A DNA stretch of 64,000 nt from Labia minor. Its lineage: Eukaryota; Arthropoda; Insecta; Dermaptera; Spongiphoridae. The DNA lies in NCBI GenBank assembly GCA_963082975.1, contig OY720344.1, positions 8,667,580 to 8,731,579 on the forward strand, written 5' to 3'. A program made the position numbers and the translations under genes. The notes beneath the pieces were generated by a model that was not told the DNA's origin, did no database searches, and saw only the letters and a program-made list of their open reading frames with translations. Within the stretch, counting starts at the first letter, position 1. Each line of letters begins with the position of its first letter. Below, one piece after another: positions 3,501-63,763 of this stretch.

Positions 3501-6500
3501 ATTTATTCCATGTTCTATTATTATTAATATCTATTTAATAAACAAAACAGATTGAAATATACTTATAAAAAAATAAAAAATGAGATCACACACTAATGAG
3601 ATTATACAACTTTCATAAATGTTAATATAAAGTAATCAATATTTCAAGCGCCCCTGGAATCTAGATAACCAACTTAACAGATGAGTATGCTTTAAATGAT
3701 CTTAACAGGCGTCCATCAATAGAAAATTATTACCATTGAAAGTATTTTTCAATTTTTTTCTTTACTTTCACTTATAAATATATAAAAAAAATAAAATTCT
3801 ATTACGCATATTTATTCATTGCTTAATTATTAAAAAAGTTTATTATTAAAGTTATTGACATTAAATTTTATCTCATTCCAATGATTAATTGAAATAACAA
3901 CAATTTCACCTTTCCACAATATTGTTTTTTTTTTTCTTTTATCATAACTTTTCATAATAGTAAAGTTTTTATTTTCGAAAAGTATAAAATATTCATTTTA
4001 ATCCAAGATTAAATTTATTCTATTATTATTTTATATTTATTTTTTGAGATTTAGATCATATTTTATTATATTAATTAATTAATTTATTTTGTTTTTCCTC
4101 TTTCCTCCTCAATAGTTTTTTTGTCCTCAGTCCTAATATTCTTTTGGATAATAATTATTGCTCTGAGTATTTTCTCATAATATAACCAGCAAGTTTTAAT
4201 TTGTATGATTAGTTGCATGATGGCTGCACATTGGTCGCATTCCATGCATACGATGCTTATCGGCCATCATTGCAACTTAAAATATATCTATGTATCTTTT
4301 CGTATATATATATATATATATATTAAAGAGAAGAGAGTTGTTGTTGTTGACTTGAAAATCGTGTGGAATTTGCATAAATATTCGCGAGAACGAATTCCTT
4401 CTTCACATTGATTTAATGAAATCGTGACTAACAAATGGCGTTTCCTGTTTTTTTTTTGTTTTGTTTTTTTTTTCAAATCATCTCCCAAGTTACGCCATCA
4501 GATTGTTTCCCCTATTTTGGCGGTTTTACCCTGATGTTGCACCCCCCCCCCCCCGCCAGTTTCGGAAATCCCAAAGTGGCCGGCTGGTAGGTGCGGCGGC
4601 GGCGGCGAATTCCTGAGCCGGTTCCGGGGAGAGGCTTCGCCCCTCCAGAGCCGAATTCCTCTGCGGCCATTCAGTCCCGAAGCGCTCGGCCCAAGCCTCC
4701 AGACGCATTCCATTGGCGGTCCTCCTCTTGGCCGTCCCGGGACATGTGCTTTAGCATCCCGCATGATGCCACCCGCAGCTGCTGAACTTTACCCCCATTT
4801 GGCATATCATACCAGTAGACAACAACCAATTTTGGAATGGAGATGGAACAATCTTCCTACACAGCCTCCTATCTGGACAACTCAGCCGTATATTATGCTA
4901 GAGGTCATCCATCTCTTCTTCCACTTAAGTACAATCAATCCACTCATGTTCCGACATTTCTTGCATTTATATATACGAATAAAATAAATCTCACACCTAC
5001 TTTTTACAATTATTTAAGATATATAAATAAATTTCAACAAAATAATAATAATAATAATAATATTAAATTATTAAAGCTTTGGTGGCTGTTTTTATTTATA
5101 AGGGAATTTTGTAAATAAAACCACATATTGATATTTGTTATTGTAAATTTATTCAAAAAATACAAAAAATATACACGTTTCGATTGCTACTTCTGCTACG
5201 ATTGCTACTTCTGCAATCGAAACGTTGTGTATATTTTTTGTATTTTTTGAATAAATTTACAATAACAAATATCAATATGTGGTTTTATTTACAAAATTCC
5301 CTTATAAATAATAATAATAATAATTAATATTTGAACAAAAATTCCTATTAATGAAAAAAAAGTTATCTACTTACTTAATCATTATCCCTTATTCGATAAT
5401 TATATAAAATTGTCATCCAGTCATGGATTTCGAAAATACTACCAGTGGGTTCTTTTTTAAATTCCAAATAAACTTTTCTTATGCAATTTTTACTGGTCGC
5501 TTTTAGTTTACAAGATAAAAATTATTAAAGTTATTTTGCTTTTACTAAGATTGGATGAAATTTAAAAAAAAAAAATTTCTTCAAAATAATGATATTAAAT
5601 TAGTTACTTTAAACTTTTAGATGAATTGTTATTGTTTTGTTTTGATAATGAAATTGTGTCAAATATCAACCTTGACTGATTTTCATATTCTATTCCTGAT
5701 CGTCAATTTATCAAACAACTATTGTTTTTCTTCTTTTGTCAAAACAAATATTTTATTAATCACTTTTTGAAGAGGTTCAATTCTTGTCTTTAATTAAAAT
5801 AATTTGAGAATAAATCATAACTAATCCAAAGAGTAATTGGTAAGGATACTTGTCACCTCTCGGATTTTGATGAAACTTCGCCATTTGATTCTTTGTGATT
5901 AATTCTAAAAAAAAAATTTCCTTAGGCAATATAGCGGGGAACCTTCTAGTTTTCAAGATAAAAATGATTAAAGTTTGGATATAAATCCATTGATATTCTA
6001 TTTAAGCTACCATGTTTTATCCATTATATATTAAATATTATAGAAAAATATTAAAAAATTAATTAATTAAATAATTTCCTTATATCCAAACCGAACCGAA
6101 AAAAAAACGAAATTTAGTGAATAAGTGAATAATTAGTGAATTAGTCAATAAAACATTACTTAATGACTTAATGACTGCAAAATATTCGAAAACTAAAAGT
6201 TCCCCGGTATATTTTATAAGGAAAAAGTTTCTTAGAATTAATCAAGGAATCAACTGGCAAAGTTTCATCAAAATCCGAGAGGTGATATGTATCCTTAACT
6301 ATTACCATCCAAAGAACTTCTAATCAACAAATTACCTATAAATGATCAATTAACAAATTTATTTATTTCATAATTTTCATTAAATCTTTCTTTATTTTAA
6401 TTTAAAATAATTTAATTATTACCCTCGAATATTGGTTCTTTCTATTATTTTTTTTACTATTTATTATTCATAAATTCCTATCAAATATTTACAATATTTG

Positions 6501-9500: not shown

Positions 9501-12500
9501 CCATTATGACAAATTAAAAAAGTCCTTTGTGAATAAATTTTTGTCATTTAATATTTCTTTATTTAAGAGATTATTTTTATTCATAGATTTATTTATTAAT
9601 TTATTTTTATGTATATCCTCTATATTTCCATATATCCATATACTTGTATAAATTGTCAATTTAAATTTTTTCAACTTTTGTTCAAGCATTAATATTGAAT
9701 TTTAGTGTTCCTGTTATAATTTTGTTATCGTGTTTTAAATTATCTGATCCTTTATTTTTATTTATTTTATTGTGTTTATTTATATATTTATTTTTATCAT
9801 ATTTTAATTGAAGTAGATTTTTTCTTTTATTTAGGTTTTTGACATTTAAAATTCCTGTATTTAATGGATATGTTTTATTCATAGATTTATTTATTAATTT
9901 ATTTTTATTTTAATTAATTCTCTTTTATTTTCTATAATAATTTTAATATAAAACATTAAAAAGACATATATTTATTATTTAATTAATTAATTATATTTTT
10001 TTTTTAATTTTTATTCCAGTGTTGAGCAGAAATTGGCTGGGGGCGGTGGGTGCTATAATATCACTCAGGCGCACGCGATAGTCGCTGAACTCGGCAATAT
10101 TCAACGATCGCTCTCTTCTGGGGAGCGAGAGAAGGCTGAACTGATGCAAAGTCTTGCTAAACTCAAGGACGACTTGACTAGGCTGCAACTCAATGGCGAC
10201 CCTATCAATACAGATTCACATGGTACGAATCTATTTCTTGTTTTATATTTAAAAAACAAACAAACAATCTTGAATAATTGATTTGTTTTTAAATTCTTTA
10301 GAGAATTAAAACAAAAAAAAATTATTTAAAATTAAAAAAAGGTAATTGTTCAGAGCAGTTGTTTTGTCATGGATTTTGATATTACTTTACCAATTTTTTG
10401 TTAATTAATTCTTTGTTAATTCCAAAGAAAATTTGCTTATGCAATATTTCTCGGTCTCTTCTAGTTTACGGGATAAAAATTATTAAAATTTGTATATAAA
10501 TCCATTGATATTCTATTAAGCTTCCATGTTTTTAATCATTTGGCCAGCAGAGGGCTCCACTAATTTTTAGTTAGAGGGAGTGGTTCAGTTTGAATTGGAT
10601 ATAGAAAAATTAAAAAATTAATTAATTAAAAAATTTTCCTATATCCAAACCGAAAAAAAGCGAAATTTGGTGAATAAGTGAATAATTAGTGAATTAGTCA
10701 ATAAAACATTACTACTTAATGACATCATATTTCGAGGTACATAATAAGCTAATCTGGCAACCTTAATAATTTTTATCCCGTAAACTAGAAGAGACCGAGA
10801 AATATTGCATAAGAAAAGTTTATTTGAAATTAAAAAAGGAACCCACTGGTAAAGTTTTATCCAAATCCATGACATGACAACTGTTCTGAACACTTACCAA
10901 GTTACCAAAAATACTTTCTTTTTTTTTAGTTAATATGATAAATTCTAATATGTTTCTTTTTTTTACTTAGGGAGTCTCTCAGGTGGTGATAAATTAAGCA
11001 CCGCTTCGCAGACAGACCTCAGTGGTGAATTAGCAGTTCCAATTGGTGCTCGACTTGCCGAAATGGCGAGAACTAGACTTCGTTATGATGAAGCACGAAA
11101 ACGAATTCAACATCTACAACATCGTTTAGCTGATTTAGAAGAACAGGTCATGCCTGGTCAGGTTAGTATCTTAATGATATTTTAATATATAATAAATTCT
11201 TCTTCTTCTATATAATTATATATATTCTAAAAGAAATCAATTATTTTATTTAAAATAATAATAAGATTTAATTAGTCATATATATTTGGTATTATTTTAT
11301 TTATTGATAGAATGTTTTGTTTTGTTTTTCAGGCTGAATCTGATCAGGATCGATTATTATTATTTCAAGAAAAAGAGCAATTGCTTCGAGAATTACGTAC
11401 TGCTCCAACACGACCCGGAAGCGCGGGCGCTGAAGAAATTAGACGTTTGGAAGCAGATTTAGCAGCTGCTCTTGAACATTCAACGAGAGCCATTGCATCT
11501 AGATTGCGATTACATGAACAAAAACAAGCACTTTTAGCTGAATTACGTGATGCATTACGATCAATGGCAAGTTTAGAGGGCCAACTTAAAACTTTATCAG
11601 CTTCAACGCTTAGTGTATCATCAAGTTCCAGTTTGGGTTCATTATCAACAACAAGCTCTAAGGTGCGTTGGATTTAATGTTGTTATTAATTTTTTTACTA
11701 TCTCAGTGATTGAATCACTGAAAGTACCGGAATTAATTTTTTAACAATGCAAATCACGCGCCAACACGTGACGTGGTGCCATCAACAAAGAGCCAAATGA
11801 TTTAATAAATATTATTTATTAATTTTAATTTAAATATAATATATGTTAATTAATCAAATTCAAATTGCGAGATAGTCGAGTGGAGATACTCCACCTTTTT
11901 TTTTTTTTTTTTTAAGAAAAGAGAAAAAATATCAATTTTTTTCAATTGTTTCTTTCTAGGGTTCTCTAAGTAGTGGATTAAGTTTTACTGATATTTACGG
12001 TTCTCCGGCCACTGGCCATGGCACAGTCCCTTCCCCTCCTCCTGCCGTTGATATGGCAGATCTGCATCGAAGGGTTCAAAGGCTACTTTCAACAGCACCA
12101 CCTCCCACTTATCAGGTAAACTATAAAATTTTTATTTATAGAAAAATTATATTATTTATTTTTTTTTTTTAATTATTTAATTTTCTTTAATTGATTAACT
12201 AAAAGAGAAAAATCTTCATTTCTAGGAGTCTAGGAATTTAAATGGCACAACAGTAACATCAAGTGCGCCTAGAGGAGTGGTTGTTAGTAGTAGTGATGAA
12301 AGTGTTGCTGGGGATTCGGGCGTTTTCGAAGCCTCTTCAGGTGCTGTTGGTGCAAGTGGATTGGGTGTGGGTAGTTCAAGTGGATGGCGATTCCGAGGAA
12401 CTGATGACGGATCCGTACTTCCTCATTCAGGTGTTGAAGTTGATGAAGTACCGGATGTTGCTCAAGTAAGGATATCATTGAAATATTCCACGAAAGAAAG

Positions 12501-30092: not shown

Positions 30093-30529
30093 CAATTCAA
30101 TTAAATAATTTATTCTAAAAGTTCTCATTTTAATTTATTTAATAAAATATTTAGATCATATATAACTTAATTTTTATTTATTCTTTCTATATATTTGAAT
30201 ATTTCTTCTTTTCTATTTGAAAGTGAAATGTTAAAAAACAGAATATATTATTTTTAATGTTTTATGAATACAAAAATATTTTCAAAACGTAAATTAAAAT
30301 AACTAAATTATATTATTTTTGATTTTGTTTCAATTATTAATTACAAATATATTTTAAGTGCAAAAATGATTTCTTGGTTAATTAAAATATGGTTTTTAGA
30401 CAAATGATATAAACGAGATGTTTTAAATTTATGTCTTTTTTATATTGAGTATTTTTTTAAAATTAAAATTTGTTTTAAATCAAAATTATTGTATTCAATT
30501 ATATTTTTTATTAATAGGCTTCTTTTTTT
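30093..30529. other. A+T-rich DNA
   Basis: Nothing supported between FB2 and H1-1. Confidence 0.5.
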
Positions 30530-31120
30530 ACCGACCGAAGATAGTAAGGGAGGTATTGTTTTCACACCAAATTTCACATGTGGAGATTTTTACATATCTC
30601 CACGAATCATGCATTTTCTTAACAGAAAAAAGTATTTTTAGCATGATGTCTGTCCGTCCGTCCGTCCGTCTGTCCGTATAGATGTGTACAGCCTGAACAG
30701 CTGAACGGATTTTGATGAAATTTGGTATATTTACTTAATGCATCAGTGGGATGAATTGATCAACTTTTGGTACAAATCCAAAAACCGGAAGTGGTAGTTT
30801 TAGCGATCGACGATAAGAAGGGAAGGGTTATTTTCACACCAAATTTCACTTGAGGAGATTTTTTTATATATCTCCACGAATCATGCACTTTGTATTGGTT
30901 TTATCCTCGGAAAAATCATATTTATTAGTTTTTACTTGATTTAAAATTATATGACGTCACAGCCTGGTCTTGCATATATATTATAAATAAAATAAAATTA
31001 AAAATGTTTTTATTTATTATTTATGTATCCATATCTGTTTTTTATTACATTAATAGATATATTAAAATTATTTGAAATTGTTTCCGTCGGTCGGTTCGGA
31101 CCTGGCCACAGGTCAACTTA
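30530..31120 (+). mobile_element. H1-1: Helentron-like (HINE/DINE-1 type) element
   Basis: It begins ACCGACCGAAGATAGTAAGG after a T run. A GTCY microsatellite lies at about 30649-30678. Near the 3' end comes the inverted CCGTCGGTCGG, then the hairpin GACCTGGCCACAGGTC, ending AACTTA. A 5' sub-terminal repeat, GTCY core and 3' sub-terminal repeat followed by a hairpin are the marks of Helentron-derived elements. No ORF. Confidence 0.8.
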
Positions 31121-33504: not shown

Positions 33505-34163
33505 GTTTCCGGATATACACCAAAAGTTGATGATTTCATGCTACTGATGCATTAAGTAACTATACTAAATTTTATCAAAATCCGTTGAGCCGTTCAAGTT
33601 GTACACATATCTATACGTACACACAACGGACAGAACGGCTACAGAAACAATTTCAAATAATTTTAATATATCTATTAATGTAATAAAAAATAGATACAGA
33701 TATAAAATAAATATTTTTAATTTTATTTTATTTATAATATATAAATAAGAGCTGGCTGAGATGACGCCATATAATTTTAAATTAAGAAAAAACTAATAAA
33801 GATGATTTTTCTCGAAAATAAAACCAATACAAAGTGCATAATTCGTGATGATATGTAAAAAATCTCATGTGAAATTTGGTGTGAAAATAATCCTTCCCTT
33901 CATATCTTCGATCACTAATACTATCACCTCCGGTTTCCGGATTTGCACCAAAAGTTTCATACTGATGCATTAAGTAAATATACCAAATTTCATCAAATTC
34001 CGTTGAGCCGTTCAAGCTGTACAAATCTATACAGACGGACAGACATCATGCTAAAAATACTTTTTTCTGTTAACAAAATGCATGATTCGTGGAAATATGT
34101 AAAAATCTCCACATTTGAAATTTGGTGTGAAAACAATACCTTCCCTTCCTATCGTTAGTGGGT
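33505..34163 (-). mobile_element. H1-2: broken Helentron-like copies
   Basis: Two H1 pieces in minus orientation: a short one at 33505-33640 and a longer one lacking the hairpin end at about 33640-34163, which ends near 'atcgttagtgggta'. Blocks 'aaaatctccacattt', 'atgcatgattcgtgg' and 'ccggtttccggatttgcacc' identify the family. Confidence 0.65.
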
Positions 34164-34469
34164 AAAAAAATAAATCTTTTAATAAATTATAATAGAATAA
34201 AATGATAGAAGAGCGCCGGGATGAGCAGTTTAAATACATTTAAAAATAGATGAAATTTTATCATTTATAAATTTATCTTTATTATTATTATTTTTAAACA
34301 TATATATTATATAGTATACTCGTGATTATTATATAACGACTCTAAAACATTTTGAAGTGAAACTTCTTTAGCGGCGTCCTGACATTTGGTTGAGAATGGA
34401 GAGTGAATTGAAAAATTGAGTTTTCGTAACGCAAGTGAGAAAAAAGATATAAGTATAACGAGTGAGAAT

Positions 34470-34563: not shown

Positions 34564-35241
34564 ATCCCCACTCATGACGCGCAAGTCCATGACGCGCATG
34601 CGCACGAGTACGTTGACGAAAATTCTCAAGTCATATATACAGCGTGCACGCATACCGACGCATGTAATTGTGTGTGTGAACATGGTCGGCGATTCACACG
34701 CCAACACATACAGTTATGTGCGTCGATGACCATTCACGTTATTTATCCGAATCTCAACATTACTTTAACACTACTAAATCAATTTAAAATTATTATTGCA
34801 TTTAAAACTGCTTTTCTCTACTCCACAGATTTCACTATGCCGAAAAAAAATAACGACCAAAATTTAGACGATATTATTTATTTCATACACCGTTCACTAC
34901 TGGTTTATAGCCACACAGGTGCAAATGCACTTGAACGAGGCGAAGATAAAATCCCTCTAATTCTCGGGGGAGATTTTAATGTAAATTTTGGATCTGATGA
35001 TTCGTTGCCGTTGATCAACTTTCTTCGAGAAACATTTGGTCTGCTTATAAATAACGATCCCAAGGAATCAACAACAAAATCTGGAACTACAATAGATGCT
35101 GTTTTTACACGTTATATAGAAAATATCGAATCACGAACATATATATCTTATTTTAGTTATCACAAGCCATTAATATCAGTATTACCAATTGAAGCACCAA
35201 CCGACAATAGTACAGGCAATGTAGATATGATGATAGAGTAG
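34546..35241 (+). CDS. Endonuclease-like ORF, probable Helentron fragment
   Basis: A 231-aa frame. The first about 97 residues (Met, His, Cys and Thr mix) look like translated non-coding DNA, and a better start is Met98 at 34837 (MPKKNNDQNLDD). Residues about 135-215 hold IPLILGGDFNVNF, TTKSGTTIDAVFTRYI and TYISYFSYHKPLISVL. This is the C-terminal half of an endonuclease/exonuclease/phosphatase fold of the type found beside PIF1-like helicases in Helentron-class transposons. The catalytic N-terminal half and any Rep/helicase are absent. The H1 copies on both sides are in the opposite orientation, so it is not simply the coding part of either. It is probably a stranded piece of an autonomous relative. 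Protein function today is doubtful. Confidence 0.55.
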   Translation: MRSFVLIPTHDAQVHDAHAHEYVDENSQVIYTACTHTDACNCVCEHGRRFTRQHIQLCASMTIHVIYPNLNITLTLLNQFKIIIAFKTAFLYSTDFTMPKKNNDQNLDDIIYFIHRSLLVYSHTGANALERGEDKIPLILGGDFNVNFGSDDSLPLINFLRETFGLLINNDPKESTTKSGTTIDAVFTRYIENIESRTYISYFSYHKPLISVLPIEAPTDNSTGNVDMMIE

Positions 35242-35251
35242 ATAATAATAA

Positions 35252-35881
35252 TAAGTTGACCTGTGGCCAGGTCCGAACCGACCGACGGTTTGAAATAAAT
35301 TAATTTCCAGCTACAGAAACAATTTCAAATAATTTTCATATATCTATTAATGTAATAAAAAACAGATATGGATACATAAATAATAAATATAAACATTTTT
35401 AATTTTATTTTATTTATAATATATATGCAAGACCAGGCTGTGACGTCATGAATGGCTGGATGACGTCATATAATTTTAAATCAAGAAAAAACTAATAAAT
35501 ATGATTTTTCTCGAGGATAAAACCAATACAAAGTGCATGATTCGTGGTGATATATAAAAAAATCTCCTTTGGTGTGAAAATAACCCTTTCTTTCCTATCG
35601 TCGGTCGCTAATACTACCACTTCCGGTTTCCGGAATTGCACCAAAAGTTGATCAATTCATTCCACTGATGCATTAAGTAAATATACCAAATTTCATCAAA
35701 ATCGGTTGAGCCGTTCAGGCTGTACACATCTATACGGACGGACGGACAGACGGACGGACAGACATCATGCTAAAAATACTTTTTTCTGTTTAGAAAATGC
35801 ATGATTCGTGGAGATATGTAAAAATCTCCACATGTGAAATTTGGTGTGAAAACAATACCTCCCTTACTATCGTCGGTCGGT
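35252..35881 (-). mobile_element. H1-3: Helentron-like element, complete
   Basis: In minus orientation the element runs from the ACCGACCGACGATAG end at 35881 to the hairpin GACCTGTGGCCAGGTC at about 35258-35273. A GTCY/GGAC microsatellite lies at 35738-35762. Nearly identical to H1-5 (43519-44156), so both moved recently. Two 5' blocks of about 110 bp inside the element are copies of each other. Confidence 0.82.
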
Positions 35882-36190
35882 AATAATAAAGCGAATATTT
35901 GTTACGAAAATTTTATAATGTTATATGTCTTTCGAAATGATCCCTTTATTTTTCTCTATTTCTCTCTCACTCACACTCTCAACTAAAATTTCTCTTATTC
36001 TCTAGATTCTAAGAAGTTTCACTTCCGCCACGTGTACGATGCTGCACATTTTGCTTTTTTTTTTTTATATATATATAAATAATTTCCTACATATTACCTT
36101 CCATATATACGTACCTACAACTCCCCTCGAGCCCTACCTTGCTCAATACTAAATATTGCAAAAAATCCTTTTTCTTTGACAATTCCAATG
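35882..36190. other. Unassigned DNA between repeats
   Basis: A CT-rich patch ('ctctctcactcacactctca' near 35957) and a T run at 36055. No gene seen. Confidence 0.4.
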
Positions 36191-36603
36191 GGTAATTGTT
36201 TACAAAAACGGACGATTCAGGAATTTGGATAAAACTCAGTCCATTAACATTCAGTTTGACAGCCATATTAATAATTGTTTTATGCAATTGGTCTCAAGAA
36301 TTATTCATTTATTCACTAATTTTAGGGGTTTTTTTCGTTCAGTTTGGATATAGAAAAAATATTTAATTAATTAATTTTTTTAAAAATTAGTGAAGCCCTC
36401 TATTGACCAAATATAAAACATGGTAGCTAAATAGGATGTAAATGGATTTATATGCAAATTTTAATAATTTTTATCTCGTAACCTAGAAGAGATCGAAAAA
36501 AAATTTATGAGAAAAGAGTCTTTGGAATTAAACAAGGAATCCATAAGTAAAGTTTCATCCAAATCCCTGGTGATTTCTGTTTTGTAAATAATTATCTAAA
36601 TAA
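36190..36603. repeat. FB1 copy, left of H1-4
   Basis: FB1 blocks 'aggaatttggataaaactca', 'gttcagtttggatatagaaa' and 'aacctagaagagatcg' are present, ending 'ttgtaaataattatctaaat'. The same tail recurs at 37400-37430 after H1-4, so a part of FB1 is present twice around the inserted H1 element. Confidence 0.6.
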
Positions 36604-37202
36604 ATAAGTTGACCTGTGGTCAGGCGCAGAACTGACTGTCGGTTTGAAATAAATTAATTTCCAGCTACAGAAACAATTTCAAATAATTTAAATGTATCTA
36701 TTAATGCAATAAAAAACAGATATCGATATATCATAAATATATTTAATTTTATTTTATTTAGAATATATAAATAGGAGCTGGCTGTGAGACGTCATGAAGT
36801 GCTATAATATAATTTTAATTTAAGAAAAAACTAATGAAGATGATTTTTACCGAGTGCATGATTCGTGGTGATATGTAAAAAATCTCCTCATGTGAAATTT
36901 GGTGTGAAAATAACCCTTCCCTTCTCATCGTCTATCGCTAATACTACCACTTCCGGTTTCCGGATTTGCACCAAAAGTTGATCAATTCATCCCACTGATG
37001 CATTAAGTAAATATACCAAATTTCATCAAAATCTGTTGAGCCCTTCAAGCTGTACACATTGATACGGACGGACAGATGGACAGACATGATGCTAAAAATA
37101 CTTTTTCTTTTAAGAAAATGCATGATTCGTGGAAATATGTAAAAATCTCCACATTTAAAATTTGGTGTGAAAACAATACCTCCCTTACTATCGTCGGTCG
37201 GT
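36604..37202 (-). mobile_element. H1-4: Helentron-like element
   Basis: Hairpin end 'aagttgacctgtggtcaggc' at left and the GTCGGTCGGT end at 37202. It is more diverged than H1-3 and H1-5; the hairpin has changes. It is placed between two FB1 fragments. Confidence 0.75.
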
Positions 37203-37430
37203 AAAAAAACACAGAAAATTAGTGAAGCCCTCTATTGGCCAAATGAATAAAACATGATAGCTAAATAGAGTGTAAATGGATTTATATTAATAATTTTTAT
37301 CTCGTAACCTAGAAGAGATCGGGAAAAATTTTATGTGAAAAGAGTCTTTGGAATTAAACAAGGAATCCACAAGTAAAGTTTCATCCAAATCCCTGGAGAT
37401 TTCCGTTTTGTAAATAATTATCTAAATAAA
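37203..37430. repeat. FB1 fragment, right of H1-4
   Basis: It repeats 36390-36600 almost exactly ('attagtgaagccctctattg' to 'ttttgtaaataattatctaa'). It directly precedes the promoter-proximal DNA of the SDR gene. Confidence 0.6.
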
Positions 37431-37705: not shown

Positions 37706-40700
37706 ATGGAAATTGACGGATGCAGGGCGATGGTGACAGGCGGTGCCTCTGGTATTGGCCTTGAATATTGCAAACAACTCTTAATTAACGGGGCCAAGGT
37801 ATGCCTAAGTTTAACTTCCAATTTAAACTTATCAAAAAAAACAATTTTTATTTATTCGATTAAAATGAAATGTATTTTCTAAATTACATAACATTACTAT
37901 TAGATAAGCCTTTCTATTAATAATACAAATAGAAATGGATGGTAATTTATTTAAAATTTATTTTTGTTTTTCTTAGTTTCTACTTTTTTTTTTTTTTTTT
38001 TTTTTGTAAGTATTCTAATTATTTTTCGATTTGTATCTATCGGATATGAATAAATAACTTTTGTTAGTAAAAAAATATATCTATTTTTATGTTTATTTAC
38101 ATAGGATTTCCATTTAGTTATATCAATATCATCGATCGATTCGTTATATTTTTCCTTTAACGACAAATAACAACTGATTTCAAGCAATGATAAAAATTTT
38201 CAATCCGAATTCCTCATTTCTCAATACTCTTTTAGTGATAAATTTATTTTTTTTTCTTTTATTAATGATTCTTATAAACGTTTTCGGTATTAAATTAAAT
38301 TAATTAAATTAAGCGTTAGTTTATCTATTAATTATAAAAATAAACATAATAATATAAACAAACATACGAGGGTGTGATGAAAAGTTTCCGATCTGACCAA
38401 GAAAATCGATGTTTTTAAATTTTTTTTTTGCAATATTTTTCAACATAATCTCCATCAACACTGATACATTTCTCATAACGGTGTTCTAATTAATTTAATT
38501 AATTAATTAAATTTGATTTAATTTTATTTAAGTCTCATCAACAGTTATGAATCGACGCAAAAATTCGTTTGGATTACACCTACAGCGCCAAATTGTCGTT
38601 AGAAATGGTTTTTCGAAGCAATTTTTGGTCTAACGTTAGGAAATGCGGCACCCACGTTGCACACAGCTTTGCATATTCAAATGGTTTTGCAAAATATTTC
38701 GCACACGTTGGGCTGACATCGTACAGGTCTCAGCTATCTTGAATTTTGAAAAATAAAACAAAAATAAGCTGGAGTGTCTCCACTCGACTATCTCGCAATT
38801 TGAATAGGATTAAATAACATAATATATTATATTTAAATTAAATTTAATTAATTATAAATTATGAAAAATAAATATTAAACCACCGCATGTTTGGCTTTTT
38901 GTTGATGGCACCACGTCACGTGTTGGCGCGTGAGATTTGCAGTGTTAAAAAATTAATTCTGGTAATTTCACCGAATCAATCAAGCTGAAATTCTATATAT
39001 AGCAGTTTTATACAATTATTAATCATGTGAAAAATTATCAAACATATATCTTTATTTTTACGGTCACTTTGAGGAAAAAAAATCAAAACGTTGTACGTAA
39101 TGACCCTCTTCCGGTTGAGCTACATTTCTCAAAAGTTGATAGAAAACTACGAATTTTGAATTCTAGCTCAAACCGTTTTTGCGTAATCTTGTCTTCATAC
39201 ATACTCACACACACACACACACACACATTTTTCTCAACCTTAGTGAAAATGACTCAGGGGCCTTCAAAACGTATATAAACATCAAAATCTCAACATCGAA
39301 AAATTTCGTGAGATAATAAAAAATTTAAAAACATCGATTTTCTTGGTCAAGTCGGAAACTTTTCAGGCCACCCTCGTAAAAAGTTAAGAAACTTTTTGGA
39401 ATTTTATTGGATTAGACATTTACTATAGTCGTGAGATATTCAATTTTAAATTAGTAACTTAAAACTATGCAGGTGAGGTTGAGTGTGTTGATCTTTTATT
39501 ATTATATTTCTGATTTAAATTTTACAATTCGAGGCCACTTCGGATAAATCCTGTGTTCACTATTATATCATGATCCTTATCTTATCAGTTTGATATATAT
39601 TTTATACTCAATTCGATTATATACTGAAAAATCTGTAGTGTCTCCACTCGACTATCTCGCAAATTTGTATTTGATTAATTAACATATTATTATATTATAT
39701 TTAAATTAAATTTAATGAATTATAAATTAAAATTAAAAAATAATATTTAATAAATCAGTGCATGTTCGGCTCTTTGTTAATGGAACCACGTCACGTGTTG
39801 GCGCGTGAGATTTGCAGAGTTAAAAAATTAATTCTGGTACTTTCAGCGATTCAATCAAGCTGAAATTCTATATATAGCAGTTTTATATAATTTTTAATCA
39901 TGTGAAAAACTATCAAACATATATCATTATTTTTATTTTTACGGTCAGTTTAGGGAAAAAAAAACAAAAGATTTTAGGTAATGACCCTCTACCAAAAGAG
40001 TTACATTTCTCAAATGCCAGTGGCCGGAGAACCGTAAATATCAGTAAAACTTAATCCACTACTTAGAGAACCCTAGAAAGAAACAATTGAAAAAAATTGA
40101 TATTTTTTCTCTTTTCATAAAAAAAAGAAAAAAAAGCTGGAGTGTCTCCACTCTACTATCTCGCAATTTGAATTGGATTAATTAACATATATTATATTTA
40201 AATTAATTATAAATTAAAATTAATAAATAATATTTATTAAATCATCGCATGTAGTCAAGATTAGGCAAAAACGGTTTGAGCTAGAATCATGAAATTTGGG
40301 CATTATTAAAATTCGTAGTTATCTATCAACTTTTGAGAAATGTAGCTCTTTTAGAAGAGGGTCATTACCTACCATGTTTTTTTTTCCCTAAACTAACCGT
40401 AAAAATAATGATATATGTTTCATTGTTTTTCACATGATTAAATATTGTATAAAACTTCTATAAATAGAATTTCAGCTTGATTGAATCGCTGAGAGTACCG
40501 GAATTAATTTTTTAACACTGCAAATCTCATGCGCCAACACGTGACGTGGTTCCATCAACAAAGAGCCAAACATGCGCTGATTTATTAAATATTATTTTTA
40601 ATTTTAATTTATAATTTAATTAATTAAATTTAATTTAAATAGGGTAGAACCTCGATAACTCAAACCTCGGTAACTTAAAAACCTCTATAACTTCAAGAAA

Positions 40701-43700
40701 TAATATGTTCCCTTCCCATCAGAGCCAAAAACCTCAATAACTTAAATAAATAATCTCTGTATTGGTCCTCGGAAGCTGAAATCTTGAAGAAACAAGAATC
40801 AGGAAAAAGTCTTCAATGTAAAAGACGAAAAATTGCTGAATTCCCTAATTTAGAACAATGTTTAATTGGTTCAAACAATGTAGAAACAAAAACATCAGTG
40901 TTAGTGGAACTATACTGAAAGAAAAAGCTGAAGAGTTCGCTAATTCGCTGAAAATCAAAAATTTTAAAACCAGCAATGGCTGGCTAGAGAATTTTAAGAA
41001 ACGACATGCTTTAGCCTTTAAAAAAATGTTATTAACCAATCCGCCTATCCCTAACATAGACCCTTGATAACTTAAAACCTCTATAAATTAAAATATTTTG
41101 TGTTTCCCTTGGACTTCAACTTATCGAGGTTCTTCTGTATAATGTATGTTATTAAATCCAATTCAAATTTGCGAGATATTCGAGTGGAAACACTCCAGAT
41201 TTTTTTATATTTTTCTCAATGTAAATATGATAAAATTTAAATTATTAAACATACATCTGAACATAAAACTATAGGTATAATAATGGTTTGATTTCTGTTT
41301 TAGAAAGTTGCAATTTTGGATTTGAATAAAATCCAAGGGGAGGAATCTGAAAAGAGTCTTAATAATCAATATGGAACTGATAAAGTAACTTTTATATTGT
41401 GCGATATTTCTAAAAAACAAGATCACCAAGGTAATCTTCATTTTACTGATAGTTATTATAAATTAAAAGCAAAAGAATAAATAATAAAATAAATTAATAT
41501 ACATTAAAATAGAACGATTTATATATATATAATTTGTTCAGATTAGAAATTTTTGTATTATTTATTCCACATAAATATTAATTGGATTATAATGAATGAA
41601 TTTAATAATTATAATTTTTACATTTTAAAATCAAATCTGGAATAAAAATAGAATTGTTTTTATAGATGCATTTCAGAAAGCCATCACTCAAATGGGAGGT
41701 TTAGATCTTGTAATAAACAATGCTGGTATTATGGATGATCAACGATGGGAACTCTCCATAGAAATTAATGTGGTAAAAAATCTCGTCTTATCTTAATTAT
41801 TATCTTTTTCTTGGTTTATATATATTTTATAACAAATGATACATATGAGGTTGTTTCAAAAGAAAAGGTGAATTTTGAATTTTTGCGCGCATTTTGTACA
41901 TTCTAATCATGGATTCTGCATCACGATGGCCAAAAACAACACCGTAATATGCCTCAACCACCGTATTCACCAGATTTGGCTCCCTGCGACTTTTTCCTAT
42001 TCCTAAAACTGTAGAGACCAATGAAAGGAAAGCGTTAGGCCACAATTGATGAGATAATGTCAGATCGAACGAGCTGATGTCCATATCGGCAACCGCATTT
42101 CAGAAGTGCTTCGACGATTGGAAGAACCGCTGGCATAAATGCATCTGAGGGGAATTACTTTGAAGGGGACAAAATGGATATTGATGAATAAATAAATACT
42201 TTTCGAAATAATTCAAAATTAACCTTTTCTTTTGTATAAATCTCGTATGAACATTTTTTTATAATACTTTTAATTTAATTGATTTGTCAAAATATCAATA
42301 TGAAAGAAATACTAAAAAATTTATTTTCTTCCTTTTATAATAAATGAAAAGTATATTAGAATTGAAAAATATTTATCAATCAATTATTATGTTAAAAGAC
42401 TGCAGTTGCAAGAGGAACAATCTTAGCATTAGAAGCGATGGACAAAAATAAAGGAGGAAAAGGAGGAACGATTGTCAATATTGCTTCCATTGCTGGCCTC
42501 TCTCCGGTTGCCTGTTCACCGGTTTATTCTGGTACAAAACACGCAGTCATTGGGATGGTCCGATCATTTGGGGTAAATACTCTTTTTTTTAATTTTTAAA
42601 TTTCTAATTTTTATTTATATACATAAATTAAATAAGATCTTTTTTTTGATATCTTTTTTTTACTATCTGATAAATTATTTACGTAATTTCATTATATAAA
42701 TTATATAAATAATTCTAATCCATAGATAAAATTATGTAAGTTTTTGCATCTATAATAAATACATTGCTCTGATTTTAAAAATTGTTACATACCTGAAAAC
42801 TTTTTAAATTTTTATTTAATTTAAATTTTTTCTAACGTTTTCCTTTTAATTAATTTTATAAAATTATCAGATCATTTCATCCTTTCTTTTTTAAATGTAG
42901 ATTATAAATTTTATTAATATCTAATAAATAAATAAATAAATAAAAAACCAGATGTTTATTATTTTTAATGTTTTAAACTGATAAATATTTTTTAAATCAT
43001 TTAAGTTCAATTTTAATAGTTTTTATTTGAATTACCCATTTATTAATTTTATATTACATGTTTTAAATTATTTTCTAAATTTTTAAATTTGAAATATTAT
43101 AAATCCATATACTCGATAAAGAGTATTAATTAATAAAATAAAATCGAAAAATGAAATAAATATAACGCTTTGTTCTTATATTATTCAATTAGACAAGCCT
43201 TATAAATTTAGAGATAAACTAATAAATTTTTGAAATTAAAGTTTAATAAATTTTCTTTTGTGATTTTATATTATATTCATTGATGATACGATCATTTGGG
43301 AAAATACTCTTTTCATTCAAAGTTACCACCAGCCATTTTTCAGTAGATTTACCAATTTTTTATAACTTTTCTTCTCTCATTTAAGATAATTGTCCCATCT
43401 ATATAATATATTTGCGGATGTTAATATGAATTTCTCATTATTCCCCAAATGAAAGAAATAATTTTTTAATGTAATTGAAATATTGGAAATAATGGAAAGT
43501 CAAAAAATCTAATTTAAATAAGTTGACCTGTGGCCAGGTCCGAACCCGCCGACGGTTTGAAATAAATTAATTTCCAGCTACAGAAACAATTTCAAATAAT
43601 TTTCATATATCTATTAATGTAATAAAAAACAGATATGGATACATAAATAATAAATATAAACATTTTTAATTTTATTTTATTTATAATATATATGCAAGAC

Positions 43701-44918
43701 CAAGCTGTGACGTCATGAATGGCTGGATGACGTCATATAATTTTAAATCAAGAAAAAACTAATAAATATGATTTTTCTCGAGGATAAAACCAATACAAAG
43801 TGCATGATTCGTGGTGATATATAAAAAAATCTCCTTTGGTGTGAAAATAACCCTTTCCTTCCTATCGTCGATCGCTAATACTACCACTTCCGGTTTCCGG
43901 AATTGCACCAAAAGTTGATCAATTCATTCCACTGATGCATTAAGTAAATATACCAAATTTCATCAAAATCGGTTGAGCCGATCAGGCTGTACACATCTAT
44001 ACGGACGGACGGACAGACGGACAGACGGACGGACAGACATCATGCTAAAAATACTTTTTTCTGTTTAGAAAATGCATGATTCGTGGAGATATGTAAAAAT
44101 CTCCACATGTGAAATTTGGTGTGAAAACAATACCTCCCTTACTATCGTCGGTCGGTAAAAATATACACGACGTTTCGATTGCTCGGACAGTGCTGTTTTG
44201 AATAAATTTACAATAAAATATCAATATCTGGCTTTATTTACAAAATTCCCTTATGAATAAACATAACGACCAAAGCATTAACAATTTAATTATTCTAATT
44301 TAAATTGATTACTTAAAAATATTTTAAAATTAATTTTAACTTTTATTTTTTTCTTATTTTATATCTTTTTTATAATACATATTTAAAAAATAAGTTAATA
44401 AATATTTTTTAATAACACAATAATCAATAAATAAATTGATAAATAATTAATGTTTAAGCATCCGTTACATATGGACCGGTATGGCGTCCGAGTGATGGCT
44501 ATGTGCCCTGGAGTTACAGAAACACCATTAATCATGGAAGGACACACCAAACAACGCACTGACGAAGACAATGCGGTTTTTAAAATGATTCCTCAAATAT
44601 TGCCACCTCAACCGTGAGTATACAATTTTAAAGAATTAATTTTATTAATTTTTACAACGAGAGTATCTTATAACTTTTTCATAAAGTTCATTATTTTTAA
44701 ATTAATTAATCAAATCTTATGATTTTCTCAAAACTTAACACACATATAGAATAAGATGCTTTACACCTTTTATTTTTCTTTCTTACAGACCCAGTTTCGT
44801 TGCTGAAAATATGATAACTTTATTAAAAACTGGCTCAACTGGAGATATTTTTGTTTGTGAATTGAATCAACCTTTGTATAAAATAATAATTCCTGATTAT
44901 CAAACTTTTAAAGTTTAA
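37706..44918 (+). CDS. 15-hydroxyprostaglandin dehydrogenase-like SDR, copy 1
   Basis: Six coding exons: 37706-37798, 41304-41430, 41666-41772, 42399-42572, 44459-44613 and 44789-44918 (TAA), 261 aa, with GT/AG borders and consistent phase. It is a classical short-chain dehydrogenase: TGGASGIG (residues 11-18) binds the dinucleotide, D37 after the second strand favours NAD+, NNAG is at 91-94, and the catalytic set is S139, Y152 and K156 (YSGTK). MCPGVTETPLI follows. Human 15-PGDH has the same spacing minus one. In insects such enzymes oxidise hydroxylated lipids or alcohols; the substrate is unknown. The start ATG matches copy 2 at 63203. Intron 1 (3.5 kb) is filled by M2, H2, Tigger and a captured piece of kibra. 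An alternative last exon lies at 45780-45909. Confidence 0.9.
38367..39376 (-). mobile_element. Mariner-like element M2-A with nested H2
   Basis: Terminal repeats: 'cgagggtgtgatgaaaagtt' at left and the complement of 'ggccaccctcg' at right, with 'gaccaagaaaatcgatgttt' in both. TA target duplications at 38365-38366 and 39377-39378. The minus strand codes RRFITVDE and RVRNILQNHLN-type mariner transposase text in broken frames. H2-3 (38769-39318) is inserted in it; the sister copy at 49344-49727 shows the empty site. Confidence 0.8.
38769..39318 (-). mobile_element. H2-3: Helentron-like element nested in M2-A
   Basis: It begins CTGGAGTGTCTCCACTCGAC (3' hairpin, minus orientation), runs through 'gtcacgtgttggcgcgtgag' and a CA microsatellite (39208-39228), and ends near 'cgtgagataata'. 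About full length. Confidence 0.75.
39377..39642. other. Unassigned intron DNA
   Basis: Part of SDR intron 1 between M2-A and H2-4, not clearly repetitive within this window. Confidence 0.4.
39643..40013 (-). mobile_element. H2-4: Helentron-like element, 5' part replaced
   Basis: The 3' end CTGTAGTGTCTCCACTCGAC is followed by the usual H2 blocks to 'ttacatttctcaaa', where the family sequence stops. The next bases are kibra DNA (40016-40116). Confidence 0.75.
40016..40116 (-). other. Captured fragment of kibra (intron end plus 57 bp of exon)
   Basis: Complemented, these 101 bases equal 11916-12016 at every position. They include the polypyrimidine tract, the acceptor TTTCTTTCTAG and the first 57 bases of the kibra exon 11960-12115 (GSLSSGLSFTDIYG). 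It is followed on the plus strand by an A-rich run and then the 3' hairpin end of an H2 element, mirroring the order at kibra itself. It is not coding here. It is best explained by H2 rolling-circle replication that ran past its 3' end. Confidence 0.93.
40135..41198 (+). mobile_element. H2-5: inverted H2 pair with Tigger insert
   Basis: 40135-40258 is a minus-oriented H2 3' tail (CTGGAGTGTCTCCACTCTAC). From 40259 the family continues in plus orientation from an internal point to the 3' end 'gagtggaaacactccag' at 41198. A Tigger-like element (40642-41137) interrupts the plus part. So two H2 3' ends face outward. Confidence 0.7.
40642..41137 (+). mobile_element. Tigger/pogo-like element, deleted
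   Basis: Terminal repeats GGGTAGAACCTCGATAAC (left) and, complemented, CAGAAGAACCTCGATAAG (right) with TA on both sides. The + strand codes a CENP-B-type helix-turn-helix piece (CLIGWFKQCRNKNISVSGTI-like text in part of the frame 40858-41067, then GWLENFKKRHALAFK). The DDE domain is absent. Confidence 0.75.
41844..42249 (+). mobile_element. Mariner-like element M1-B, deleted
   Basis: Ends 'tatgaggttgtttcaaaaga' and the complement of 'ttttgtataaatctcgta'. Plus-strand text MPQPPYSPDLAPCDFFLF appears with one change from its relatives, and FQKCFDDWK...RWHKCI near the end, in broken frames. It sits in SDR intron 3. Confidence 0.8.
42573..43518. other. A+T-rich SDR intron 4
   Basis: Nothing supported before H1-5 except low-complexity runs. 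Confidence 0.5.
43519..44156 (-). mobile_element. H1-5: Helentron-like element, complete
   Basis: Hairpin GACCTGTGGCCAGGTC at about 43525-43540, GGAC microsatellite at 44002-44035, and the GTCGGTCGGT end at 44156. Very close to H1-3. It lies in SDR intron 4, directly followed by an FB2 fragment. Confidence 0.82.
44157..44292. repeat. FB2 fragment
   Basis: 'aaatatacacgacgtttcga' then 'gaataaatttacaataaaat' and 'ttatttacaaaattccctta' match one FB2 arm. The outer 'caaagcattaacaatttaat' matches the FB2 border in complement. Confidence 0.6.
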
Positions 44919-47661: not shown

Positions 47662-48060
47662 AAAATTATTATTTATATACCTACATATTATTTCTATTAT
47701 TTTTTTTTTAACTAAATATAAATCGTTTAAATATTGTTAATTTTTTTAAAATTTTTAAATTTCTTATACAATACTATAAATCTAAATTATTATATTCGAT
47801 AAAAGGTATTAATTACTAAAATCAATTATTTTTTTTTATTCTACTAATCTTTTCTATGATATAAAAAAATATTTTCTTAAAAATCATTAGAGTCCAAAAT
47901 CAATAAAAAAAAAAAATAAAATAATAACTATATAAAATATAATTATAAAATTAAAATCTCAGTAAAAAATATTTTTATTTTTTTTTTCAAATAATATTTT
48001 AATTATTAATTAAATTCATTTTTACATTAATTAAAATATCAAACAAATATAAATACTTAA
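47662..48060. other. A+T-rich DNA
   Basis: Low-complexity sequence with no supported feature. Confidence 0.5.
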
Positions 48061-48312
48061 ATTATTAAAGCTTTGGTGGCTGTTTTTATTTATAAGGGAA
48101 TTTCGTAAATAAAACCACATATTAATATTTTTTATTGTAAATTTATTCAAAAAAATAGAAAAAATTCCCAACGTTTCAATTGCTACTTCTGCAATCGTTA
48201 TCAAGTGATTGCAGAAGTAGCGTTTTGTATTTTTTGTATTTTTTTGAATAAATTTTGTAAATTTTTTAAATATTAATATGTGGTTTTATTTACAAAATTC
48301 CCTTATAAATAA
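48061..48312. repeat. Foldback FB2, complete copy
   Basis: Arms 'tataagggaatttcgtaaat' and 'tttacaaaattcccttataa' around a centre whose minus strand reads CTTGATAAC, ATTGC-AGAAGTA-GCAAT, GAAACG. This is the copy with the most hammerhead-like order (conserved box 1, stem II, GAAA box), although box 1 has two changes from CUGANGA. Confidence 0.65.
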
Positions 48313-48863
48313 AAATACTTGTTATTATGTACTTTCTCAAAATGATCGAAAAAGAAATTACAAAAATGTTATAATATTACATTATAAACTCACTTTTATT
48401 AAATGTCAATGATTAATTCATTTTCTTTTGAATAAAATAAAATTAAATTAGTATACTTGAATTAAAAGTACAATCAATAACCAATAATATATTATTTTCT
48501 CCGCACTGCATTCTAACTATCTAGCCGAGGTATCTGCTCGCTCCAAACTTACTCTAGAAACTCTTATTTCTTTTAGTGATATACTTTTATCTTTTGTGAA
48601 TGTATACTATAATTAAACACTATTTCCTATTTATAATTTACATAATTATTTAATATTTCGAACATAAACTCTTTTGGTGAGGGAGAATAGTGACTTCTTC
48701 CCAAGTCCTCCATCAGCAAGAAGAGCCAACAAGATTGACAATTTCTGATACAAATTAATAGGTAAACTTTCAATTTACTACAAAAATATCTCATGAGGAA
48801 ACAAACAAATTATAAATATCAAATCCATTTTTGTTTGTTACTCACAGCGATAAACAAAATTAG
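48313..48863. other. Unassigned DNA
   Basis: A less A+T-rich patch at 48500-48560 ('ctccgcactgcattctaact') has no recognisable coding sense. Confidence 0.4.
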
Positions 48864-49343: not shown

Positions 49344-49727
49344 CACTGATACATTTCTCATAACGGTGTTCTAATTAATTTAATTAATTAATAAATTATT
49401 TATTTAATTAATTAAATTTTATTTAATTTAATTTAAGTCTCATCAACAGTTATGAATCGACGCAAAAATTCGTTTGGATTACGCCTACAGCGCCAAATTG
49501 TCGTTAGAAATGGTTTTTCGAAGCAATTTTTGGTCTAACGTTAGGAAATGCGGCACCCACGTTGCACACAGCTTTCCATATTCAAATGGTTTTGCAAAAT
49601 ATTTCGCACACGTTCAGCTGACATCGTACAGTTCTCAGCTATCTTGAATTTTGAAAAATAAAACAAAAAAAAAAATTTAAAAACATCGATTTTCTTGGTC
49701 AGGTCGAAAACTTTTCAGATATCCTCG
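49344..49727 (-). mobile_element. Mariner-like M2-B, 5'-truncated
   Basis: From 'ctgatacatttctcataacg' to the right end 'cttttcagatatcctcg' it matches 38450-39376 without the H2 insertion. It shows RRFITVDE and RVRNILQNHLN-like minus-strand text. Confidence 0.75.
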
Positions 49728-51151: not shown

Positions 51152-54100
51152 TTACTTATGTAAGTAATTCTCTAATGAGTTTGTGGTATTTTCCTTTAAT
51201 AATGAAGTCAAATTTGTAGTTGTATTTAATTCTCCACTTTTGGATGCCATTAGTTTATTTTGATAGATTATTTGAAATTGTAGCAATATAGTGATGTTTA
51301 TAAAAATAGTGCTTAACATCTAAAATGTTTGTTAATTTACTTTAATAAAAGTAAAAAAAAAACAGATGAACATCATTTATTCTTACTTTCATTAGTAGTG
51401 TGATATCAATTGAAAAATATTCGGATACTTTGAAATCAATCTTTCGATGAAGTATTTGCAAAAAAAATACTTTTAGCTGAAAAGAATAGGTTTTCGTAAT
51501 ATTTTAATTTTTTTAAAATAAAATTATTGAATAATTGAATGAAATTAATAAATATGATTCAATTAATGAAGGTGACGCTTTAGTTTAACCTACCAAAAGA
51601 TTTGATTAAAGATAATAATTGGTATATAATATTGTAAAAGAAAAAAATATCTGTTTTTGTTTAATGAAATTGTAAAACTGATCTTAGTAAAATATGCTGC
51701 TCCTATATAATAGTAAAAGGCAAATTAGTTGCTTGAACTTGATTGGTTCTCTAACAAATGGTCCACGATCCTCTCTTCCAAAATCCTTAAATATCAGTCA
51801 TCCAATCTTTGGTTCGTCAGTCAGTCAGCGCCCTCTTCAGAAGCGCGAGAGAAGCATCTCCCTTCCACTCGAGAGAACTACAATCTCCAAGCAACGAACT
51901 GTCCTTCTCAGGACATATACGAGGTTTGTTCCAAAGAAATGGAGAATTTTGAATAATTTCAAAAAGTATTTATTTATTCATCAATACCCATTTTGTCCCC
52001 TTTGAAGTAATAATGCACTTATGCCAGGGCTTCTTCCAATTGTCGAAGCATTTCTGAAATCAGCTTATTCTCCGATTTAGACTTTATCTCAATATTTGGG
52101 GCAAAACGCAATCCTTTCATTGGTCTCTTAGTTTTTGGAATAGGAAAAAGTCGCAGAGAGCCAAATCTAGTGAATACGGTGGTTGAGGCATGATTACGTA
52201 GTTGTTTTTGGCCATAAAATCACGAACAAGCAATGATGTGTGAATTTATCCTGATGCAGAATCCATGATTAGTTTTCTACAATTCCGATCGTTTGAGCCG
52301 TATTACTTCAAGCAAACGTTGCATAACTTCATTGTAGTAGCCCTTATTAACAGGACGACCTGATGGCAAGTACTCATGATACACCACGCCATTGCAATCG
52401 ACAAAAACAATGAGCACAACCTTCACATTTGATCGAACTTGGCGTGCTTACTTCGATCGGTCTTGGCTCTTCTTTTTTGAGACAAAGTAGACTCGCCTAA
52501 TGCCACAATCAACATTTTAAGTGCGTTGGAGCACTTTATTCCTTTTTTAACGCAAAATTTAATATAGATTCTTTGATCCATTTTTTTTAAGTCAAGTGAA
52601 GAAACTTTTTCAGTACTAATCTAAAATGGCTGATAATCTCAACATATGAGAAACATAACAAAAAACAATTTCGATAATCGAATGTAAACAGCCCGCGAAA
52701 ATTCAAAATTTGCCTTTTCTTTTGAAAAGATCTCGTATATATTTATTCATATCAACAAAACAGAATATCTTACAATATATATACATAAAGTAGATGGTAC
52801 AAATATGGGCTACCATTTATCTAACTCTTATATTAGTTATTTAAAATCAACTTGAAAGGAAATTCATTCCTCCACCATAGGATGGGACAAATTTACAAAG
52901 TATTTTATAATAAAATTTTATCTCAATTCATTTAATTTTGCATTAAATGAAGATTTTTAATTTTTTTATGAAATCAATATTCGAGAAATGATTATGTAAA
53001 TATGAGCTACTGTTATTATTATTACTATTATTTATATTTTATAAATGCATAAAGGAAAAGGAAAATTGAAAATAAATTAATTTATAAATTATGTGTTTTA
53101 CATGTTTAATTAAAAATCACAAATCTTTTCACTTGAAATTATTGGGTTGATGCAAAAATCGTACTGATTTCAAACCAACAATTCAGGTCGTTTCCGATTG
53201 ATTGGTCGTTTCCGATTGATTGCTCGTTTCAATTCATCCATTTGTGAATAATATTTTTCAGAATTTATTGTCTAATTTTCCGATATCAGTTCATAATAAA
53301 AATACGTCCATATAATCATACACAACATCACTTTTTTGGGATGCAAACCAGGCTTTGCTGTAATGAAACTTCATTTTTTACCGACCGACGATAGTAAGGG
53401 GGGTATTGTTTTCACACCAAATTTCACATGTGGATATTTTTACATATCTCCATGAATCATGCATTGTCTTAACAGCAAAAAGTATTTTTAGCATCATGTC
53501 TGTCCATCTGTCCGTCTAGAACGGTTCAACGGATTTTGATGAAATTTGGTATATTTACTTAATGCATCAGTATGATGAATTGATCAACTTTTGGTTTAAA
53601 TCCGGAAACCGGAAGTGGTAGTATTAGCGATCGACGATAGGAAGGGAAGGGTTATTTTCACACCAAATTTCACATGAGGAGATTTTTTACATATCACCAC
53701 GAATCATGCACTTTGTATTGGTTTTATCCTCAAGAAAAATCATCTTCATTAGTTTTTTCTTAATTTAAAATTATATGACGTCACCCAGCTCTTCATGACG
53801 TCACAGCCAGCTCTTACTTATATATTATAAATAAAATAAAATTAAAAATATTTATGTTATATCCATAACTGTTTTTTATTGCATTTAATAGATACATTTA
53901 AATTATTTGAAATTGTTTCTGTAGCTGGAAATTAATTTATTTCAAACCGTCGGTCGGTTCTGCGCCTGGCCACAGGTTAACTTATTTAATTAAAAAATAA
54001 TTAAAATGATAAAATGCACATTAAAAAAATAACCGAATTAAATTAATTGGTATTTTATAATAATTCGGTAAAAATATTTGGGTAATTTCAAAATTTCTTA

Positions 54101-57058: not shown

Positions 57059-57222
57059 CGAGACTGGGGTGAAAAGTTACCGGCCTGGCCAAGAAAAACG
57101 ATGTTTTTAAATATTTTTTTTTTTTGCTTATTTTTCAACATTCAAGTTAGCTGAGACCTGTACGATGTCAGCTGAACGTGTGCGAAATATTTTGCACAAC
57201 CATTTGAATATGGAAAGCTGGG
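57059..57222 (+). mobile_element. Mariner M2 fragment
   Basis: 'ggggtgaaaagttaccggcc' with 'gccaagaaaaacgatgtttt' is the M2 end, followed directly by plus-strand RVRNILHNHLNMES. An internal deletion joins end and coding part. Confidence 0.65.
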
Positions 57223-63202: not shown

Positions 63203-63763
63203 ATGGAAATGAAAGGATGCAGGGCGATGGTGACAGGCGGTGCCTCTGGTATTGGCCTTGAATTTTCCAAACAACTCTTAATTAACGGGGCCAAGGTATG
63301 CCTAATTTTAATTTCCAATTTAAACTTTTCAAATAAATAGACAATTTCTATTTTAACGATTAAAATGAAATATATTTTCTAAATTAGACTGAGTAGAGTG
63401 ATAATGTTTGAACAAGGTATTGGGGGAATCGAAAATGAAAAAATTTAAAAAGAATCTTCAGAGGATGTTGCATGTTTATTTTTAAGATAAATAGAAAAAG
63501 AATATTTACTTAATGAAAATAACGTTACAATTATTGATCTCAAATCTCAAAAATATCTTAAATCTTTCTTTAATAATAATTTTTATTTATTATTAATATT
63601 ATTTTAAATTTAAGATGATAATTAATTCTGTTTTAGAAAGTCGCAATTTTGGATTTGAATAAAATCCAAGGGGAGGAATCTGAAAAGAGTCTTAATAATC
63701 AATATGGAGCTGATAAAGTAATTTTTATATTTTGTGATATTTCTAAAAAACAAGATCACGAAG
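63203..63763 (+). CDS. 15-PGDH-like SDR, copy 2 (5' part, cut by window end)
   Basis: Coding exons 63203-63295 (MEMKGCRAMVTGGASGIGLE) and 63637-63763 (KVAILDLNKIQGEESEKSLN); the third exon should begin just past 64000. It is a near twin of copy 1: exon 2 differs by few bases, and even intron 2 (63840-64000 against 41495-41660) is almost identical. TGGASGIG and the Asp after the second strand are kept, so NAD+ binding is expected. Intron 1 is only 341 bp against 3.5 kb in copy 1. An upstream in-frame ATG (63068) belongs to LINE debris; the start at 63203 is chosen by homology to 37706. Tandem duplication, recent by the intron identity. Confidence 0.88.

Follow-up and report, generated by a model that had tools for sequence, protein, structure and literature searches.

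We found that the first intron of a short-chain dehydrogenase gene in the window (the whole stretch of 64,000 nucleotides that was analysed) holds a 101-bp fragment of kibra, splice acceptor included, beside copies of a well-supported Helentron family that is called H2 here. The capture was confirmed as real, and the captured copy was found once. Its origin is best explained, tentatively and with not quite an even chance of being right, by repair copying primed through H2 homology, that is, ectopic synthesis-dependent repair by the 'filler DNA' route. The captured piece and its source agreed at 101 of 101 bases, as the preliminary description had claimed, and the exact match extended by 0 and 0 bases beyond the two borders; such identity is far beyond chance. 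The source comprises the last 44 bases of the intron (11916-11959), including its polypyrimidine tract and acceptor AG, and the first 57 bases (11960-12016) of the exon at 11960-12115. It had also been claimed that the piece is immediately preceded, in donor and recipient alike, by an H2 3' hairpin and a T-run, and this was confirmed. The search of the whole assembly that had been proposed (604,477,936 bases in 71 contigs; counts may be lower bounds) gave two candidates, both of which were scored: one in kibra and one in the dehydrogenase intron. The pieces, their order, their identities and their joints are observed, and the kibra piece was found only in its gene and here.

The naming of kibra as the source was borne out by these two places and by the two exons flanking the donor site, which matched Pfam PF25802 (WWC1 helical hairpin) with an E value of 1.9e-27. 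When a rough join of the window's exons was used as the query, named insect kibra proteins were retrieved; in the leading rows of the matches listed, identity reached 74% at most and 42-43% of the query was covered. A comparison with PDB gave no significant match (best E 0.17). The recipient is an adh_short gene, which presumably resembles 15-hydroxyprostaglandin dehydrogenase, and the description of the site as the first intron of an unrelated gene, with the piece in antisense, was right. The intron of a paralogue (63296-63636) is 341 bp long. The positions of the features are collected in the table below. The H2 3' end that completes arm 1 lies about 105 bp upstream of the acceptor of dehydrogenase exon 2, much like H2-1, which stands about 65 bp upstream of the acceptor in kibra. 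One family of imperfect palindromes, each about 220 bp long, was present at 5089-5316 and 48046-48317 with about 90% and 80% self-complementarity, the former between kibra exons.

Table. Features of the donor site in kibra and of the recipient intron, in window coordinates.
Feature	Position	Strand	Remarks
H2-1, short H2 copy in kibra intron	11697..11895	+	inserted in T-run; 5' ACTATCTC, 3' GCGAGATAGT, hairpin GTGGAGATACTCCAC
Source of captured piece	11916..12016	+	end of kibra intron and exon start
Intron 1 of short-chain dehydrogenase gene	37799..41303	+	holds the capture
H2-38, complete H2 copy	38765..39317	-	nested in another repeat
H2-39, H2 body with 3' end	39627..40015	-	5'-truncated at TTTT run touching the kibra piece
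Captured kibra piece	40016..40116	-	101/101 identical to source
T-run T8-C-T8-AT	40117..40135	-	between H2 hairpin and kibra piece
5'-truncated H2 3' tail	40136..40252	-	adjoins captured piece; meets H2 arm at 4-bp ACAT microhomology
Inverted H2 arm (arm 1)	40245..40640	+	faces H2-39
Element splitting arm 1	40641..41137		inverted ends AGAACCTCGATAA...
3' end of arm 1	41138..41198	+	

The earlier label 'Helentron-like' was supported and strengthened by the sub-terminal repeats, the 3' hairpin and the T|T insertion of H2. The assembly also has a RepHel gene that is followed by an H2 3' end. H2 is a non-autonomous Helentron (HINE). Seven H2 3' ends were found in the window and none in 100 shuffles. 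By reading, the stem TGGAG/CTCCA was unbroken in four of the seven and had one changed pair in the other three, and two of these ends were folded as a hairpin; the hairpin sequence was present with at most three substitutions in all 29 fetched loci. The 3' repeat GCGAGATAGT is the exact complement of ACTATCTCGC, and the two form the sub-terminal inverted repeats of H2. A match to TTTACTATCTCGCCAG with up to three mismatches was located 323-760 bp upstream of the 3' end in 21 of the 29 fetched copies, whereas the control strand had one in 1 of 29; within the same tolerance, the 5' end in those 21 copies reads TTT|ACTATCTCGCCAG. Simple repeats, mostly TG, were seen in 20 of the 29.

The insertion site was read from H2-38. 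The repeat in which it is nested is uninterrupted at 49653-49688 and, inverted, at 57099-57136, and comparison with an empty copy showed T11 replaced by T6, the element and T5, at one filled site, with the second empty copy in agreement. Therefore, H2 inserts between T and T without target site duplication. The part of PMC4067079 consulted ascribes these features to Helentrons and HINEs, and the HINE/DINE-1 elements described there resemble H2 in the sub-terminal inverted repeats, in a 5' inner inverted repeat, in the TG microsatellite, in the 3' hairpin and in T|T insertion without target duplication; the likeness is one of features and not of sequences compared with the published families. 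A search of viral contigs for H2 gave 0 exact matches.

When the recipient locus was read on the minus strand, the order was inverted arm 1, ACAT, an H2 tail that begins inside the element, the hairpin, the T-run (for which kibra has T18-AA), the 101 kibra bases and H2-39. The joint of the kibra piece with H2-39 has at most one base of homology, and upstream of the block there was no transposon 5' end at this locus. Arm 1 and H2-39 form an inverted repeat that is 88.5% alike over 322 columns and have seven minor states in common, whereas other pairs among the five copies compared that share any have one or two. The RNA of 39690-40645 folded with a minimum free energy of -446.6 kcal/mol, whereas 20 shuffled sequences averaged -158.6 kcal/mol. 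We had considered H2-40 and the tail at 41171 as two copies, but rejected this because they are one copy, split by another element.

By the preferred route of repair copying, the two H2 copies that lie head to head in the dehydrogenase intron would have formed a long inverted repeat of the break-prone kind. A break would have been repaired with an H2 tail, the 3' end and T-run of which would have paired with H2-1 in the kibra intron. Synthesis may then have run about 100 bases beyond the repeat into kibra, over the acceptor and 57 bp of exon, and stopped near the hairpin GGCCACTGGCC, after which the new end would have been joined to the body of H2-39 with at most 1 bp of homology. We infer that a break occurred, that H2 homology primed the synthesis and that the steps came in this order; together they would explain the kibra piece by one event. 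The strong fold of the intron RNA, the similarity and common minor states of the inverted arms, the lack of a 5' Helentron end upstream and the ACAT microhomology at the left joint all favour this route. Still, the left joint could be a later deletion, and the block is collinear with kibra (H2 end, T-run of 17 versus 18, exon), as is expected of a single uninterrupted copy. For the insect Helitron Hel1, the consulted part of PMC6544945 proposes filler-DNA capture, which also favours repair copying, and the consulted part of PMC7407515 reviews ectopic repair between repeats. As in that account of Hel1, a host piece lies inside the element, the joints have short homology and a repair origin is proposed; unlike in it, the donor piece here is flanked by the same element, so that long homology could prime, and two H2 copies are inverted around the captured piece.

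The origin of the tail was examined against H2-1 and other copies. H2-1 keeps its 5' ACTATCTC and 3' GAGATAGT repeats without most of the body. The idea that it belongs to an amplified short subfamily was rejected, since its 5' end (TTACTATCTCAGTGATTGAATC, at most one mismatch) was found at one place in the assembly. The preliminary description had held the tail to be nearest to the kibra copy. This stood within the window, where H2-1 scored 163 bits and the other copies 146, 136, 132, 88 and 75, but it failed genome-wide, where each of 29 fetched loci scored 181-199 bits against the tail. These 29 were the best of 39 others listed and were picked for high score, from a genome listing in which 40 of 1278 first-look candidates were scored, and their scores mean only that many copies outscore H2-1. 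When ranked by substitutions, H2-1 was the 12th of 33 rows, 11 being nearer to the tail. Both rankings favour repair copying.

In the 34-row alignment there was no column in which the tail and H2-1 share a letter against the majority. Three substitutions mark H2-1: column 148 is T, column 155 is C, and column 116 is A, which H2-39 has as well. H2-1 also bears a 7-bp deletion. Neither the substitutions nor the deletion are present in the tail, and its own A at column 138 is common to 4 of the 32 other copies, which again favours repair copying. On the other side, columns 67-76 (10 bp) are absent from both the tail and H2-1, and this common gap could be shared descent. All ten columns are absent in one of the 32 other copies (L017) and five to eight of them in eight more, and H2-1 also lacks eleven further columns beside them. 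The shared gap decides nothing, because a common deletion followed by one more in H2-1, or one deletion in each, costs two events either way. A tree of the tails neither supported nor rejected a clade of the tail and H2-1 (p-AU 0.51), and this lack of rejection counts against repair copying. The tree itself was set aside, as 0 of its 30 inner branches were well supported.

The element part and the gene part of the block were also compared for divergence. Between the tail and H2-1 there are 4 differences in 91 aligned bases (4 in 98 or 4 in 109 in other alignments) as well as indels, or 4-6%; the tail with the T-run differs at 6 of 109 aligned bases, while the kibra piece differs at 0 of 101, a pattern that favours repair copying. 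The one-sided Fisher test gave p = 0.049 for the tail against the kibra piece (0.057 and 0.071 in the other alignments), 0.018 with the T-run and 0.0023 when indels were counted. With the exon sites halved to allow for constraint on kibra, the values were 0.096, 0.047 and 0.010. The sequences lean towards a difference in age between the element part and the gene part, by a weak contrast with few changes behind it, and T-runs mutate fast. The earlier conclusion that full identity means a recent capture was overstated, because 0 differences in 101 bases allow up to 2.9% divergence (95% upper bound) and the tail with its T-run had changed.

The preliminary description had instead proposed rolling-circle read-through from H2-1 over about 120 bp of kibra, with the product joined to another H2 body. 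Put as a 3' transduction, this would mean that H2-1, transposing or soon after its insertion, did not stop at its hairpin, took about 120 bp of kibra along and entered a T-run of H2-39, with a later deletion of the 5' part and later changes in H2-1. Read-through from H2-1 was not shown: the tail and H2-1 have no derived substitution in common, no 5' end was found and the left joint has microhomology; we regard it as possible but doubtful. In its favour, the piece starts exactly at an H2 3' end and T-run, with the captured host DNA immediately downstream of the 3' end of the donor element; a TTTT run marks the recipient joint, and ten columns retained by most copies are missing from both the tail and H2-1. 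The assembly also contains a RepHel gene with an H2 3' end. In the consulted part of PMC4778049, about 11.7% of events with intact Helraiser include capture of flanking DNA, and in that of PMC4038834, insect Lep1 Helitrons bear acquired 3' sequence. Read-through predicts a complete donor copy with its 5' end, but the tail is truncated at 40252 with the ACAT joint; a later deletion could explain this. For a donor-derived tail the evidence points both ways, with the missing marks of H2-1 against it. Read-through would also require a second event and an uneven rate of change.

The border of the kibra piece was considered as a possible stop. The hairpin GGCCACTGGCC ends at this border and is the only perfect stem with four GC pairs in 697 bp, which suits read-through, but the test is loose, since 3.6-6.2% of positions pass it and 8-14% do so when G+C is matched. 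We rejected this hairpin as a proven terminator, because the strict criterion (1% of the 697 positions) was defined post hoc and looser ones gave 3.6-13.6%. It is mildly unusual and fits the stop of either process. In new ends from 3'-deleted Helraiser vectors, a palindrome in the last 30 bp was present in 0 of 5 cases in the consulted part of PMC4778049, which speaks against a hairpin stop in read-through. The Helraiser end bypass described there is like the present case in that host DNA downstream of a 3' hairpin recurs joined to the same element type, and differs in that here the captured DNA is not accompanied by an element 5' end, the tail is not donor-specific and one captured copy was found. 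The Lep1 elements, as far as the consulted part of PMC4038834 goes, likewise come from insects and have gained sequence at their 3' end, but they are multi-copy and A|T-inserting with CTRR ends, whereas the present piece was found once and H2 inserts T|T.

We consider it unlikely that the entire block of about 233 bp, including the tail, came from an older kibra allele by multi-step template switching at a stalled fork (MMBIR/FoSTeS), with the H2 homology incidental; the 4-bp microhomology joint, the near-blunt joint and the inverted repeat at the site would suit it, but the uneven divergence is a difficulty as it is for read-through, and a donor edge that falls by chance inside an H2 copy is improbable. 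An assembly or library chimera is still less probable, for although inverted repeats are hard to assemble, the tail and T-run carry several base differences from kibra, the block sits between joints with other H2 copies, and the contig of 126 Mb suggests long reads.

The captured piece is a single antisense intron fragment and probably has no function. As judged from its sequence, the RNA of the dehydrogenase intron would form a hairpin of about 300 bp with a loop that has 101 nt perfectly antisense to kibra pre-mRNA (57 nt to the mRNA), and it is highly improbable that it acts in trans on kibra; if it did, a Helentron-built structure would be acting on this gene. Helitron-like elements are known to capture host DNA, and it is still argued if they do so by read-through or by break repair. 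Here the donor, the recipient and many related copies (1278 first-look candidates) are present in one assembly, and, since the element and gene parts may differ in age, this may be one case datable on both sides. A literature search returned no title on this locus, which is no proof of its being unpublished.

A candidate autonomous partner of H2 was seen at one of nine fetched RepHel loci, on contig C1 at about 47.86-47.87 Mb on the minus strand, as an open frame of 2181 codons in which Pfam recognised PIF1 and Helitron_like_N. No Pfam endonuclease family was found in this frame at E 0.001, and the signs of an endonuclease are a GDFN motif and an identity of 36.8% (E 8e-12) to an endonuclease remnant in the window. 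An H2 3' end stands 1.25 kb behind the frame and matches H2-38 at 41 of 41 bases and H2-48 at 44 of 45; the 5' end of this candidate was not found at the locus. In three other RepHel loci, H2-like ends stand at least 3.7 kb beyond the first frame, and we regarded them as separate copies.

The remnant in the window, at 34837-35238, matched Pfam PF14529 with an E value of 0.0088, under the cut-off of that family, and its named relatives include a spider 'ATP-dependent DNA helicase' and hypothetical proteins of the braconid Microctonus, which point to a decayed Helentron gene. A different repeat, about 600 bp long, begins directly after the remnant in one of six copies (30522-31087, 33638-34206, 35250-35888, 36587-37208, 43517-44163 and 53374-54002), which are 82-98% alike pairwise. 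In the whole assembly there were 104 matches to Helitron_like_N. Seven of them, on contigs C1, C2, C5, C9 and C10, had an equal score of 195.7 bits; the only one fetched (C9:43365333) was without an H2 end. Six of the seven lie in frames of 1651-1652 codons and one in a frame of 1537, and their equal scores suggest a recently active second Helitron lineage.
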